This document shows, one piece after another, positions 3,878 through 40,120 of a stretch of 64,000 nucleotides of DNA (position 1 is its first letter; each line of letters starts with the position of its first letter). Position numbers and translations under genes: made by a program. The DNA is from Parvibaculaceae bacterium (GTDB lineage Bacteria > Pseudomonadota > Alphaproteobacteria > Parvibaculales > Parvibaculaceae). The stretch is taken from NCBI GenBank assembly GCA_028283765.1, contig JAPWJY010000008.1, forward strand, positions 1,059,001 to 1,123,000, given 5' to 3'. The notes beneath the pieces are model-generated. The model searched no databases. It was not told the DNA's origin and worked only from the letters and a program-made list of their open reading frames with translations.

Positions 3878-3979
3878 GTTGCCAGGGCCGCGCCGTTGAA
3901 CCTTTTCTGTCCGTGAGGCCGCTCACAGTTTTACGGACGGGGCAACGGGATGTTCATGATGTGAGCGGGGAGTTGCGCG

Positions 3980-4165
3980 ATGCTTGGATTTGTCGTCCGG
4001 ATTCTGCTGCTCGGCGCGGGCATTATCGCCGGCTGGCTCATCCCGCGGGATGATGCGGGCTTTGCCGTGGTCGAGTTCGTGATCGTGCTGGTGTTCTTCG
4101 CGCTGGCGAGCGTCGCCATCCTCTATGTGCCCAAACTCTGGGCGCGCTGGAAAGAGCGGAAGTAA
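3980..4165 (+). CDS. Small two-helix membrane protein, unknown
   Basis: A 61-residue protein with two hydrophobic segments, about residues 3-21 (GFVVRILLLGAGIIAGWLI) and 27-50, separated by a short PRDDAG turn and ending in a basic tail (WARWKERK). This predicts an inner-membrane hairpin with the tail in the cytoplasm. A GGGGAG ribosome-binding site lies 8 bases before the ATG, and a strong terminator follows 35 bases after the stop, so it looks like a real gene. I do not recognise a family and assign no function. Confidence 0.6.
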   Translation: MLGFVVRILLLGAGIIAGWLIPRDDAGFAVVEFVIVLVFFALASVAILYVPKLWARWKERK

Positions 4166-4199
4166 CCCCGGACGCCGCGCTGACAGGGAGAAAGCCTTT

Positions 4200-4233
4200 T
4201 CAGGCATGGCTGTCCATGCCTGAGGCTGTTTTT
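4200..4233 (+). terminator. Rho-independent terminator
   Basis: Perfect 10-base arms TCAGGCATGG (4200-4209) and CCATGCCTGA (4214-4223) around CTGT, extended by outer AGCC/GGCT pairing and followed by GTTTTTCTTT. It ends the small membrane protein gene and faces a convergent gene on the minus strand. Confidence 0.85.
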
Positions 4234-4255
4234 CTTTCCGGGAAGCGGGAAATGA

Positions 4256-4486
4256 TTACTTTTCGTCGCCCTTGCGCACGAAGGTGACGGCATACATCGG
4301 TTTGCCGTCGAAGAGATCGGCGGGTGCGCCCATGCCCTCGATGAGCTGGAACTTGCGCTGCACGATCTGGCCTTCCATCCGGTAGCCCTTTTCGCTCATG
4401 TTGCGGCGATGGAATTCCATTGCCGCAGGCGTGAACTCTGTCGCAAGCACGGTGATGCGTTCGGGGCTGTTCTTGTCGTCGGACAT
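4256..4486 (-). CDS. Conserved-looking small protein, unknown
   Basis: A 76-residue soluble protein starting MSDDKNSPERITVLATEF and ending VTFVRKGDEK. Its alpha/beta composition (EFHRRNMSEKGYRMEGQIV, then FQLIEGMGAPADLFDGKPMY) suggests a compact domain with no membrane segment or signal peptide. A weak AAAGAG ribosome-binding site lies just upstream. It has GC-rich third codon positions like its neighbours and is flanked by the convergent terminator at 4200. No family recognised. Confidence 0.6.
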   Translation of the reverse strand: MSDDKNSPERITVLATEFTPAAMEFHRRNMSEKGYRMEGQIVQRKFQLIEGMGAPADLFDGKPMYAVTFVRKGDEK

Positions 4487-4568
4487 GCCGGCTCTTTCTG
4501 GTCAGATTTCGTACGAGTAAATCCGGCGCAGTATGGTTCGCGGGTAGGAAAATGTCGAGCTTTTTGGC

Positions 4569-5602
4569 TCAGGAAAGGCCGAACGGGCCCGCGGGCGCAT
4601 TCACCGCCGTCACGAACAGAATGACCCCGATGGCAAAGACGAGAAGGCCACCGAGAAAGCCCAGCACCCGCTCGATGCGGGCCACCCGGGCGCTGCCGCC
4701 GGGGCCGACGATGCGCAGCGCCAGCGCGCGCGACGCAACGGTGAGGAAGCCCAGACTGGAAACGGTGATCGCCGTGCCGAGCGCCATGGCGAGCGTGCCG
4801 ACCACGCCGATCCAGAAAGCGCCCAGCGCTGCCGTGAACAGCAGCACCAGAATGGCCCCGCTACAGGGGCGCAGGCCCACCGAGAGCACCAGCGCGATGC
4901 TTTCCCGGCGACTGGTGTCCGGTCAAGCTGATCGGGGGCGAGGGTGTGGCTGTGGCCATGATGATCATGCCGTTCGTCGTAGGCACGCTCTTCATATTCG
5001 AAACCGTCATGTTCGCTGCCGCCATGCGCGTGGCCGGAACCGGCGCGAAGCGCGCGCCAGATCATCCACAGGCCCAGCATGGCCACCATGGCGAAGCTCG
5101 CCTTCTCGACATAGGGCACCGCGTTCATGGTCGCCCGGGTGGAAAGACCTGCGATCATGGCGAGCGCGCCAACCAGCACGATGGCGGTGATGGCCTGCAT
5201 GGCGGCGGAGAGGAAGGCAAGGCCGATGCCGCGCCGGAGCTTTCGCTCGCCCGCCAGCAGCCAGGAGGTGACAACGGCCTTGCCATGGCCGGGCCCGAGC
5301 GCATGGAGGATGCCGTAGAAAAAGGAGAGGCCCACAAGCGTGGCGGCCGCCGCGCCCGTCATCTGGTCCTGAAGGGCGGTCGCGGCCTTGGCGAGCGCGC
5401 GATAGGCCTGCGACTGCATCTGCTGGACGTAAACCAGCGCTTCGTCGAACGGGCTCGCGGCGGCGTCAGGCGGCGGGGCGGAAAACATGCCGGCGTGGGC
5501 GGGCGCGATGCTGAGGGCAAGGCAGATCAGGAGAGCAAGAAAAAGCACGGCCCGGAAAGGTTTCTCCAGGGCGATCGATTTGAAGACAGAGGGGACGCTC
5601 AT
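4569..5602 (-). pseudogene. NicO-type nickel/cobalt efflux protein, frameshifted
   Basis: Membrane exporter of the NicO/RcnA family, broken by a one-base shift. The 5' frame runs from the ATG at 5602 through a signal-like segment (ALLICLALSIAPAHA), GILHALGPGHGKAVV (family motif HX4DH-like region) and a His-rich loop (HAHGG, HDHHGHSH). The remaining family sequence (RRESIALVLSVGLRPCSGA onward to the stop at 4569) is in another frame. The switch must lie between about 4905 and the TGA at 4923-4925 of the second frame. The total length is 1034 bases, 3n+2, so one base appears missing. The ATG overlaps the DUF1007 stop by 4 bases. It may be a true mutation or a sequencing error. Confidence 0.8.
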
Positions 5603-37678: not shown

Positions 37679-38899
37679 TCACCTCGGCGAAGGCCCCACA
37701 TAGCGCGCCCTCGGGCGGATCATCACGCCGGTCCGGTATTGCTCGATGGCGTGGGCGATCCAGCCTGCCGTGCGGGCGAGCACGAACAGGCAGAGGCCGC
37801 TGCCGGGCGGCATTCTGAGCGTTGCGCCAAGGGCGGCGTTGGCGAAGTCGATATTGGGCTGGAGGCCCGCCGCCTCGGCCATGGTGGCGGCCACGATCCG
37901 GGAGCGGATGAAGGCGGGGTCGTCGCCGAAGCGTTCCTCCATCAGGCTCATCATCAGCGCCGCGCGCGGGTCGCCCTGCGGATAGAGCGGATGGCCGAAG
38001 CCCGGCACCGGGTCGCCGTTCCTCAGCCGGTTCAGCACCGCGTCCGCCACGTCCTGCCGGTGGGCGATGTCGGTGAGGAAGCTTTCCACCCGTGTCGAAA
38101 GCCCGCCATGGCGCGGTCCCTGCGCGGCGCAGATGCCGGCCTGCACGGCGGCGTAAAGGTGCGTGCCGGTGCCTGCCGCGCAGCGCACGGTGAAAGCGGA
38201 GGCGTTGAGTTCATGGTCCGCGCAGAGCACGAGCGCGGCGCGGATCAGCTCCGAGGCGCGTTTGTCGCGGAAGGTGAAGGCGTGGGCCAGCATCTCGTGG
38301 ACGGGGCGCTCGCCCGGCGGCAGGGCCGTCATCGCGGCGGCGACGAGGCGCAGCACCCGCGCCCCGGTCGAGGCCATCCCCGTTTCCGTACGGTTATAAA
38401 GCGCCGGGTCGGCAAGGGCGGCGGCGGGCAGCATCACCAGCGCCCGTTCGACGGGAGGCAGCCTGGCCGCGTCGCGCGCCAGTGTTTCAAGGAGCGGGGT
38501 GAAGGCGGGGATGGCGTCCTTCGTGAAGGGCTGGACACCGGTGCAGCCCCACAGCAGCGCCGCCACCTGTTCGAGGCTGGAACTGCGGGCAAGGGCCGCG
38601 GCGTCCGCGCCCCGGTAATAGAGCCTGCCCTCGGCGATCAGCGTGATCGAGCTTTCCAGCACCGTTGCCCCGAAATTGAGGCCGGAAGCGGTGACGGTTT
38701 CCGCCGCCGGGCCAGTGCGGCGTTCCTTGAGGCGGCGCACATCCTCGGCCCGGTAGCGCCGGGCGCGGCTCTGGGGCGCGGGTTCCGAGCGGATCATGTC
38801 GCGGCTGACATAGGCGTAGAGCGTGGCGAGGCTGACGCCGAGTTCGGCGGCGGCCTCCCGGGCGCTCAGATAAAGCGGGCTGTCGGCGGATGCGCTCAT
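37679..38899 (-). CDS. HTH-citrate synthase fusion protein
   Basis: A 406-residue fusion. Residues about 9-62 (LSAREAAAELGVSLATLYAY, SRARRYRAEDVRRLKERR) form a MerR/HTH_17-type winged helix-turn-helix. The rest is citrate synthase fold: DHELNASAFTVRC, GPRHGGLSTRVE, GFGHPLYPQGDP and NIDFANAAL retain His, Gly-His-Gly, Arg-binding and Asp sites. So the catalytic pocket looks intact while a DNA-binding domain has been added. It may act as a metabolite-responsive regulator, an enzyme or both. A divergent second citrate synthase shares its operator. Confidence 0.9.
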   Translation of the reverse strand: MSASADSPLYLSAREAAAELGVSLATLYAYVSRDMIRSEPAPQSRARRYRAEDVRRLKERRTGPAAETVTASGLNFGATVLESSITLIAEGRLYYRGADAAALARSSSLEQVAALLWGCTGVQPFTKDAIPAFTPLLETLARDAARLPPVERALVMLPAAALADPALYNRTETGMASTGARVLRLVAAAMTALPPGERPVHEMLAHAFTFRDKRASELIRAALVLCADHELNASAFTVRCAAGTGTHLYAAVQAGICAAQGPRHGGLSTRVESFLTDIAHRQDVADAVLNRLRNGDPVPGFGHPLYPQGDPRAALMMSLMEERFGDDPAFIRSRIVAATMAEAAGLQPNIDFANAALGATLRMPPGSGLCLFVLARTAGWIAHAIEQYRTGVMIRPRARYVGPSPR

Positions 38900-38918
38900 G
38901 GGCCCATGATTTCATATA

Positions 38919-38945
38919 TTGATTGTATGAATCAAGATTGATTCA
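38919..38945. promoter_or_regulatory. Divergent operator with TTGATT/AATCAA inverted repeats
   Basis: TTGATT at 38919-38924, AATCAA at 38930-38935 and TTGATT at 38938-38943. The last pair extends to a perfect 8-base-arm palindrome, TGAATCAA-GA-TTGATTCA (38928-38945). It lies in the 93-base AT-rich gap between the two citrate synthase genes and is the natural target for the HTH domain of the fusion protein, which is inferred. Confidence 0.65.
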
Positions 38946-38992
38946 TGTGCGGGCGATGCGCAGCTTTGAGCGGTACACAAGGGAGTATGACC

Positions 38993-40120
38993 ATGGATAA
39001 ACCTCTCAAGGCCGCCGCCTCCGGGCTCGACAGCGTTATTGCCGCCGAAACGGCGCTGAGCCATGTCGATGGCGAGGCGGGCCGCCTCATTGTCGCGGGC
39101 CATGATATCGGAGCCCTTGCCGCCTCCCATGATTATGAGGGCGCGCTCGCCTTGCTCTGGCAGGCGGCGGGCCGCGCGCCTGAGACGGCCGGGAACATCC
39201 GCGCGGCGCTCGGCAGGGCAAGGCTCGATGCGTTCGGCCATGTGCCCGCGCTGCTTGCCGCCAGCGAAGGATTGACGGTGGTGGAAGGCTTGCGCGCCGG
39301 TCTGGCGATGCTGCCGGACGACCATGCGCTGGCGCCCGAATTGCGTCTGGTCGCCGCCCATCCGGTCTTTGTCGCCGCGCTCTGCAGGCGCGCGGAGGGC
39401 AAGGCGCCGGCCGCGCCGGACCCGGCCAGAGGACAGGCGGCGGATTTTCTGGCGATGCTGACCGGCGAGACGCCGAAGCCTGAAAAGGTGCGCGCGCTCG
39501 ATGCCTATCTGGTCACGGTGATCGACCATGGCATGAACGCCTCGACCTTCGCCGCCCGGGTCATCGCCTCGACGCGGGCGGGCATGGTTTCCGCCATTGT
39601 CGGCGGGCTTTGCGCGCTCAAGGGGCCGCTCCATGGCGGCGCGCCGGGGCCGGTGCTCGACATGCTGGACGAGATCGGCGTGGAGGAGGCGATCAGCCCA
39701 TGGCTCGATGCGCATCTGGCGGAAGGCGACCGGCTGATGGGCTTCGGCCACCGCATATACAAGGTGCGCGACCCGCGCGCGGACGTTCTCAACGGGGCCG
39801 TGGCCCGTCTTGCCGCCAGCGGTGCGGAGGGACCGGGTACTGAGGGATCTGGCGCGGGACGGATCGCCCTTGCCCGCGCCGTCGAGCGCAAGGCGCTGGA
39901 GGCGCTCCATGCGGCCAAGCCCGGCCGCCGGCTCGACACCAATGTCGAGTTCTTCACCGCCCTGCTGCTGGAAGCGCTGGCCATTCCGCGCGCGGCGTTC
40001 ACCGCCGTGTTCGGCATCGCAAGGGTGGGCGGCTGGACGGCCCATGTCATCGAGCAGGAGCGCGTGGGCCGGCTCATCCGTCCGCAGTCGGCCTATATCG
40101 GACCATGGCCGGAAAAGTGA
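38993..40120 (+). CDS. Citrate synthase family protein
   Basis: A 375-residue short citrate synthase, without any HTH. VIDHGMNASTFAARV, GPLHGGAPGPVLDML and GFGHRIYKVRDPRA are the active-site segments; the Asp of the NVDF-type motif is Glu (TNVEFFTALLLEAL), as also occurs in short CitA-like enzymes. It condenses oxaloacetate with acetyl- or propionyl-CoA, and which is not readable. ATG 38993 (MDKPLKAAASG) with GGGAG 7 bases before is preferred over 38987. Divergent from the fusion gene, across the TTGATT operator. Confidence 0.9.
   Translation: MDKPLKAAASGLDSVIAAETALSHVDGEAGRLIVAGHDIGALAASHDYEGALALLWQAAGRAPETAGNIRAALGRARLDAFGHVPALLAASEGLTVVEGLRAGLAMLPDDHALAPELRLVAAHPVFVAALCRRAEGKAPAAPDPARGQAADFLAMLTGETPKPEKVRALDAYLVTVIDHGMNASTFAARVIASTRAGMVSAIVGGLCALKGPLHGGAPGPVLDMLDEIGVEEAISPWLDAHLAEGDRLMGFGHRIYKVRDPRADVLNGAVARLAASGAEGPGTEGSGAGRIALARAVERKALEALHAAKPGRRLDTNVEFFTALLLEALAIPRAAFTAVFGIARVGGWTAHVIEQERVGRLIRPQSAYIGPWPEK

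Follow-up and report, generated by a model that had tools for sequence, protein, structure and literature searches.

What use might a bacterium have for a citrate synthase that carries a DNA-binding domain at its N-terminus and whose gene diverges from that of a second citrate synthase? Such a pair lies in the window, by which we mean the whole stretch of 64,000 nucleotides analyzed here, from a Parvibaculaceae genome of 3.24 Mb to which, among named organisms, Parvibaculum and other Hyphomicrobiales-type records stand closest. A sequence-only reading of this DNA had suggested that the first enzyme has become a regulator of its own paralogue, and it placed both genes correctly: the fusion at 37679-38899 (minus strand) and the second synthase at 38993-40120 (plus strand), with a 93-base gap between them (38900-38992). 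The fusion encodes 406 amino acids and, on the strength of profile matches, relatives and a structure model, is here proposed to be a one-component regulator. Its N-terminal HTH_17 domain, which the earlier reading had recognized, is found by Pfam at residues 10-61 (38717-38872, minus strand) and appears in the model as a MerR-like winged helix-turn-helix (HTH). The HTH_17 score is marginal, barely above the cut-off (27.3 bits against 27), and that of MerR_1 falls just below its own (21.4 against 21.6), with MerR lower still (17.1 against 28.2); in PADLOC, the sole match is a weak one to an HTH (mad1, 28.5 bits). From the model and the alignment, we take the second helix, residues 24-33 (LATLYAYVSR; 38801-38830, minus strand), to be the recognition helix. 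The remainder of the protein is a citrate synthase domain (PF00285, residues 77-397; 37709-38671, minus strand) that scores 218.8 bits against a cut-off of 27 and retains, as had been claimed, its active-site segments: H229, H264, H303 and D351 are all present, as are the oxaloacetate arginines R312, R376, R395 and R397. The assignment of these residues, and the position of the catalytic Asp, are presumed from pig citrate synthase. Against NCBIfam, the fusion stays below the cut-off in all 21 families listed, the best being TIGR01800 (163.4 against 421.3 bits). The AlphaFold2 model is of high confidence (mean pLDDT 92) and well ordered outside residues 65-77, which form a loose linker behind the winged HTH; the C-terminal coiled coil and effector domain of MerR-type proteins are absent from it, the citrate synthase domain following directly after the short linker.

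The second synthase, the proposed main target, had been described as a plain enzyme. It is indeed a citrate synthase (304.5 bits with the Pfam Citrate_synt profile), but its residue at the catalytic Asp position is Glu (TNVEF), in contrast to the Asp (PNIDF) of the fusion. It belongs to the CitA type, with 400.5 bits to NCBIfam PRK12350 (cut-off 332) and B. subtilis CitA (2c6x) as its best structure match. The Glu is found in 47 of the 50 divergent partners readable at this position, the remaining three, with Asp, being of the GltA type; since the sequences of the B. subtilis and M. tuberculosis CitA structures have Glu as well, it is a trait of the subfamily. An AGGGAG at 38980-38985 resembles a ribosome-binding site and is consistent with a start at 38993. 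Four genes in this genome match PF00285: besides the divergent pair there is a GltA-like gene (462 bits), and a frame of 287 codons matches in part. Given the GltA-like gene, the pair is extra to the likely housekeeping enzyme.

If the fusion is a regulator, the gap should be the place to look for its target. The three half-sites reported there are present: TTGATT at 38919-38924, AATCAA at 38930-38935 and TTGATT at 38938-38943. When the mononucleotides of the gap were shuffled 20,000 times, a single shuffle contained at least three such half-sites. Conservation, a motif search and shuffles together lead us to propose as operator the three-half-site element TCAATCTTGATTCATACAATCAAT (38918-38941, minus strand), 18 bases from the start codon of the fusion and 51 from that of the synthase. 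When the 24-base operator consensus was searched with up to three mismatches, the window gave a single match, this one (38918-38941, minus strand, no mismatches), against a chance mean of 0.01. The gap holds two overlapping inverted repeats, one perfect (38927-38935/38938-38946, a 9-2-9 arrangement) and one of 89% (38916-38924/38930-38938). The earlier description of a palindromic operator needs refining: relatives conserve all three half-sites, and the perfect 9-2-9 palindrome, ATGAATCAA/TTGATTCAT (38927-38946, overlapping the operator and containing two of the three half-sites), is not the conserved unit: among 51 gaps compared by eye it occurs only in the near-identical one of the nearest relative, L005. 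The gap of L005 differs from that of the window at no position inside the 24-base operator and at five elsewhere, numbers so small that by themselves they carry no weight.

As the earlier reading had stated, the fusion architecture is not peculiar to this genome. A scan of genome contigs gave 214 relatives, of which the best 80 were used, and a class-wide search added 29 loci. The fusion loci come from six phyla (Pseudomonadota, Acidobacteriota, Gemmatimonadota, Chloroflexota, Myxococcota and one Latescibacterota MAG), in part represented by MAGs only; because many of the relatives are MAGs, single phylum placements may be wrong. Upstream DNA was available for 108 fusions, a set that excludes both the window itself (L145) and L165, where the fusion stands at a contig end; it includes near-copies (L148, for example, appears to be L015 again), and 92 rows are left after their removal. 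The site was scored as TCAATnTTGATT-n3..6-AATCAAT over 18 positions with a threshold of 15. The earlier reading had called for a survey of whether the site is kept beside homologous pairs, and such a site was found near the fusion start in 97 of the 108 loci (83 of 92 without near-copies), whereas none of 455 shuffled upstream regions (five for each of 91 loci) reached the threshold. In most loci the end of the site is close to the fusion start; for loci scoring at least 14, its position ranges from about -19 to +84 bases relative to the expected start. The spacing is 4 in 26 and 5 in 69 of 95 sites at or above the threshold, all of which share T1 C2 A3 A4 and T8 G9 A10, an invariance that is partly due to selection, as only above-threshold sites were counted.

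Eleven loci fall below 15. The site overlaps the start of the aligned region in three (L066, L070, L071), three others score 14 (L154, L158, L159), L062 has a variant site and L054 a partial one, and pattern scoring found none upstream of the fusions of L075, L077 and L078. The L075 genome holds another fusion-CitA pair that does have a site, so that at least this fusion is a second copy. A separate search of Chloroflexota matched the L056 fusion at 1e-40 in 18 of 151 genomes. Sixteen further loci from this phylum were examined, two of which (L242, L243) lack the HTH; nine of the 14 HTH-bearing loci score at least 15, two (L239, L241) score 14, and no site was found near the fusion in L237, L238 and L244.

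A residue alignment of 125 rows, two of them without the HTH, bears on both halves of the protein. Among the outcomes that would count against it, the sequence-only reading had named homologues that lack recognition-helix residues and whose neighboring gaps lack the inverted repeat; this did not occur. Y28, Y30, S32 and R33 are invariant in all 123 HTH-bearing rows, and T26 of the same helix is Thr in 119 and Ser in four. The arginines presumed to hold the ligand likewise do not vary where they can be read: R312 in 125 of 125 rows, R376 in 124 (one unreadable), and R395 and R397 in 124 each (one gap). The four catalytic residues are all readable and intact in 115 of the 125 rows, and a catalytic His or Asp is changed in nine, from several branches, every one with the HTH: H303Q in L015, L148, L060, L070 and L082, and other changes in L062, L244, L240 and L048 (in L048 merely Asp to Glu). 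Seven of the nine keep the site: six reach the score (L015, L148, L060, L082, L048, L240) and L070 has the strict match. Of the others, L062 has the variant and L244 none. Members with changed catalytic residues thus retain the HTH, the arginines and mostly the site, so that the protein can apparently do without turnover. Conservation of the binding residues through changes of the catalytic ones points to ligand sensing, and the 115 intact rows make a working enzyme possible.

The explanation we consider probable is that the fusion is a one-component, self-regulating repressor in which the citrate synthase active site serves as a metabolite sensor. The winged HTH would bind the three half-sites in the gap, and the bound protein would hold down both its own gene and that of the second citrate synthase. 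The citrate synthase part, presumably dimeric like its enzyme relatives, would act as the sensor: when oxaloacetate, an acyl-CoA or their product fills the active site, the subunits would close, closure would shift the HTH pair by way of the flexible linker (65-77) and the DNA would be released. The spare synthase would then be made when its substrates or its product accumulate, and some members of the family may still turn over substrate. The regulator reading is based on the presence of the site, on how well it is conserved and on its association with the fusion gene. The sign of control is its weakest step, and the HTH and the site may have coevolved for a reason other than sensing.

The strongest competitor, a real if lesser possibility, is a trigger enzyme: a catalytically active citrate or alkylcitrate synthase that, when substrate is scarce, doubles as a repressor of its own gene and of the neighboring one, both roles being under selection. 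The four intact catalytic positions in 115 of 125 rows are what this would predict, and the best 50 of 510 Foldseek matches to the fusion model are citrate and methylcitrate synthases. The nine rows with catalytic changes, all with the HTH and seven with the site, argue against it, if less forcefully than their number implies, since L048 has only an Asp to Glu change and L148 appears to be L015 again. Moreover, the genome already possesses both the GltA-like enzyme of 462 bits and the CitA-type one. Activation rather than repression, with the ligand-bound protein remodeling the synthase promoter in the manner of MerR, seems unlikely to us, in spite of the MerR-like winged HTH and of a dyad-rich site well placed for two divergent promoters. 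No sigma-70-type promoter was found in 38800-39100, in a scan limited to spacers of 16-18 bases; a MerR-type dyad would be expected inside a spacer of 19-20 bases. Self-repression fits better with a site so close to the fusion start, at 18 bases in the window and nearby in relatives.

If the fusion did nothing but control its paralogue, the gene across the site should always be a citrate synthase. This is true of a majority of the 108 loci: the divergent gene is a CitA-type citrate synthase in 68 (called by tblastn only, with L016 and L031 cut by a contig end) and a GltA-type one in five (L058, L060, L066, L071 and L163, of which L071 is cut, the NCBIfam comparison covering L066). The others are an HMGL-like gene in nine (L044, L047, L048, L053, L056, L063, L064, L065 and L069, all Chloroflexota), a CoA-transferase III in nine, a cupin in four (L070, L072, L082, L169) and a DUF2332 gene in three (L073, L171, L174). 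The last ten have other genes (a carboxymuconolactone decarboxylase-like gene in L062, an IS1595 transposase in L043, an MFS gene in L074, a methyltransferase in L161) or none: L014 stands at a contig end, L015 and L148 have no convincing gene, and L075, L077 and L078 have no gene there. All assignments other than CitA-type and "none" were confirmed with Pfam. On the fusion tree, the divergent gene changes 17 times among 92 rows with seven labels (the least possible being 6) and 12 times among the 85 rows left when the "other" label is dropped. Since the site persists where some other enzyme is encoded across it, it follows the fusion gene and not the second citrate synthase. The proposal of a regulator of its own paralogue is therefore right for the window, as homologues keep both the recognition helix and the site, but too narrow for the family, which appears, judging from these gene neighborhoods, to regulate a small and changing set of genes, many of them for acyl-CoA and di- or tricarboxylate enzymes. 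The same turnover of partners renders very improbable the idea that the two synthases form a mixed enzyme, the HTH being incidental or only autoregulatory. Fusion and CitA-type synthase do stand side by side in 68 of 108 loci, and Glu in 47 of 50 partners against Asp in the fusion could suggest complementary active sites; however, the divergent gene is unrelated in 25 of the 108 loci (HMGL-like, CoA-transferase III, cupin or DUF2332), and the Glu is the subfamily trait noted above.

Several of these partners recur in other positions. In L073, L171 and L174, DUF2332 is the only gene facing the fusion across the site; in L010 (2678-3736, minus strand) it lies directly behind CitA, and it falls into the same neighbor cluster in L006, L009 and L026; this recurrence is a lead to the function of that unnamed family. 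The cupin is similarly found behind the GltA-type synthase in L060, and in four loci it faces the fusion across the site by itself. The Chloroflexota HMGL-like enzyme is nearest to the NifV/LeuA type and is a candidate Re-citrate or homocitrate synthase. We do not adopt the Re-citrate synthase identity, although it is possible, as the three enzymes scanned score far below the cut-off of every family listed. Each of the eight HMGL-locus genomes searched (that of L065 excluded) also has a strong ordinary citrate synthase. In the 16 further Chloroflexota loci, the gene divergent from the fusion is citrate synthase-like in 10 and no HMGL gene lies within the 1.5 kb flank of any; HMGL is thus one option in the phylum and not the rule. 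As for the CoA-transferase III genes under the site, those at L041 (3462-4853, minus strand) and L104 (63-1451, minus strand) have a C-terminal half that matches the profile from 1 to about 210 and an N-terminal half that matches 155-322, so that the protein looks circularly permuted; the N-terminal half of the L170 protein gave no match of the permuted type. In L043 the IS1595-type transposase (3958-4839) replaces the synthase gene, and the DNA beside the fusion reads like that of L049.

Does the site track the fusion across whole genomes as well? Among 289 alphaproteobacterial genomes, 31 have a fusion (E of 1e-40 or better) and 37 contain the strict pattern, against two for a reversed-pattern control. 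The strict site occurs in 21 of the 31 fusion genomes and in 16 of the 258 without a fusion (Fisher p 7e-15), and in all 21 it adjoins the fusion gene (this includes G201, where a contig break has put the N-terminal piece, with the site next to it, on a different contig). Of 61 relatives, 36 contain the strict pattern, once in each except G009, which has two copies, and none the reversed control; the genome of the window has the strict pattern once. These numbers leave little room for a site that belongs to some other regulator, the HTH of the fusion having lost its function. In favor of this scarcely credible alternative are the 16 of 258 fusion-less genomes that match the pattern, 12 of which are of 2 Mb or less, and a half-site, TTGATT/AATCAA, that resembles FNR-type half-sites; against it, the site tracks the fusion gene and not the genome or the target, the 83 rows of the fusion tree require only five changes in its spacing, and the recognition-helix residues are invariant. 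A larger regulon was sought with up to three mismatches in the 61 relatives and discarded: among the matches listed, the extras lie mostly at three mismatches and look like noise. The second exact operator of G009, a member of the window's family, is located away from the fusion (L104 1451-1523; G009:C5:19592) before a CoA-transferase III gene, the type of gene that is divergent from the fusion in Paraburkholderia; it lies behind what looks, by eye, like the end of an acyl-CoA dehydrogenase gene. Four Paraburkholderia genomes (L215, L217, L221 and L223) have a similar site with a spacing of 3, of the TCAATCTTGATTTGAAATCAA type, adjoined in L215 and L217 by a hutH-like gene. We have not counted it as a target, as its spacing and place differ and it may well be the site of another regulator.

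The recurring companions, the second G009 site and the changes of partner are more easily explained by a transcription factor with a few metabolic targets than by a subunit of a single enzyme. We incline to the broader proposal that this is an old, multi-phylum transcription factor family, with the citrate synthase active site as its sensor and a regulator-operator cassette, with its dedicated three-half-site operator, that has come to stand before different and partly unrelated genes. There are instructive parallels. The plain enzyme of the window resembles B. subtilis CitA, of the same PRK12350 subfamily, whose gene is likewise divergent from that of a repressor, citR, of the LysR type; however, CitR is a LysR protein, whereas the regulator in the window would itself be a citrate synthase with a winged HTH. 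With the MerR-family one-component regulators the fusion shares the N-terminal MerR-like winged HTH and an inverted-repeat site, but where they have a coiled coil and a small effector domain, it has a whole enzyme. BirA, NadR and PutA are enzyme-derived or bifunctional regulators in which an enzyme fold with a DNA-binding part reports on its substrate; the role proposed for the fusion is alike in principle, although the fold and the pathway differ. In the citrate-sensing LysR regulators CcpC and CcpE, a TCA-cycle metabolite likewise controls metabolic genes by means of an unrelated type of protein.

The HTH-citrate synthase architecture is presumably already in the public domain databases, and what is new is therefore the operator, its coupling to the fusion and its re-targeting. 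We found no description of an HTH-citrate synthase regulator in the open full-text literature, a coverage that omits most subscription papers; the passages of PMC12016533, PMC3971608, PMC9739823, PMC12542777 and PMC7324645 include text that deals with SCO5831 and with a "citrate synthase family protein" of Collimonas, which describes no regulator. Should the proposal be correct, a core TCA-cycle enzyme would have been turned into a gene switch. One could then test readily whether the closing of citrate synthase on its substrate yields a signal at the DNA, and the dedicated operator could be employed to sense oxaloacetate, acyl-CoA or citrate in a biosensor. Proteins of this architecture now named citrate synthase might then be regulators, a matter of concern to annotators and metabolic models, and DUF2332, a cupin and an odd CoA-transferase would be linked to the fusion's regulon.

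Two minor observations concern the rest of the genome. The fourth PF00285 gene, the 287-codon frame (G000:C3:918696-919277; L004), matches only positions 153-349 of the domain and possibly encodes a citryl-CoA-lyase-like protein. Besides two PrpD-like genes and one for a PrpB-like lyase (264 of 354 bits), a cluster on contig C8 (G000:C8:26951-39456; L249) contains LeuC and a CoA-transferase III, and two more of its genes look MaoC-like by eye, a content that makes a C5 or alkylcitrate-type pathway possible. As contig C8 carries these Prp-like genes and no PF00285 match, the CitA-type synthase could be the one to make methyl- or alkylcitrate.
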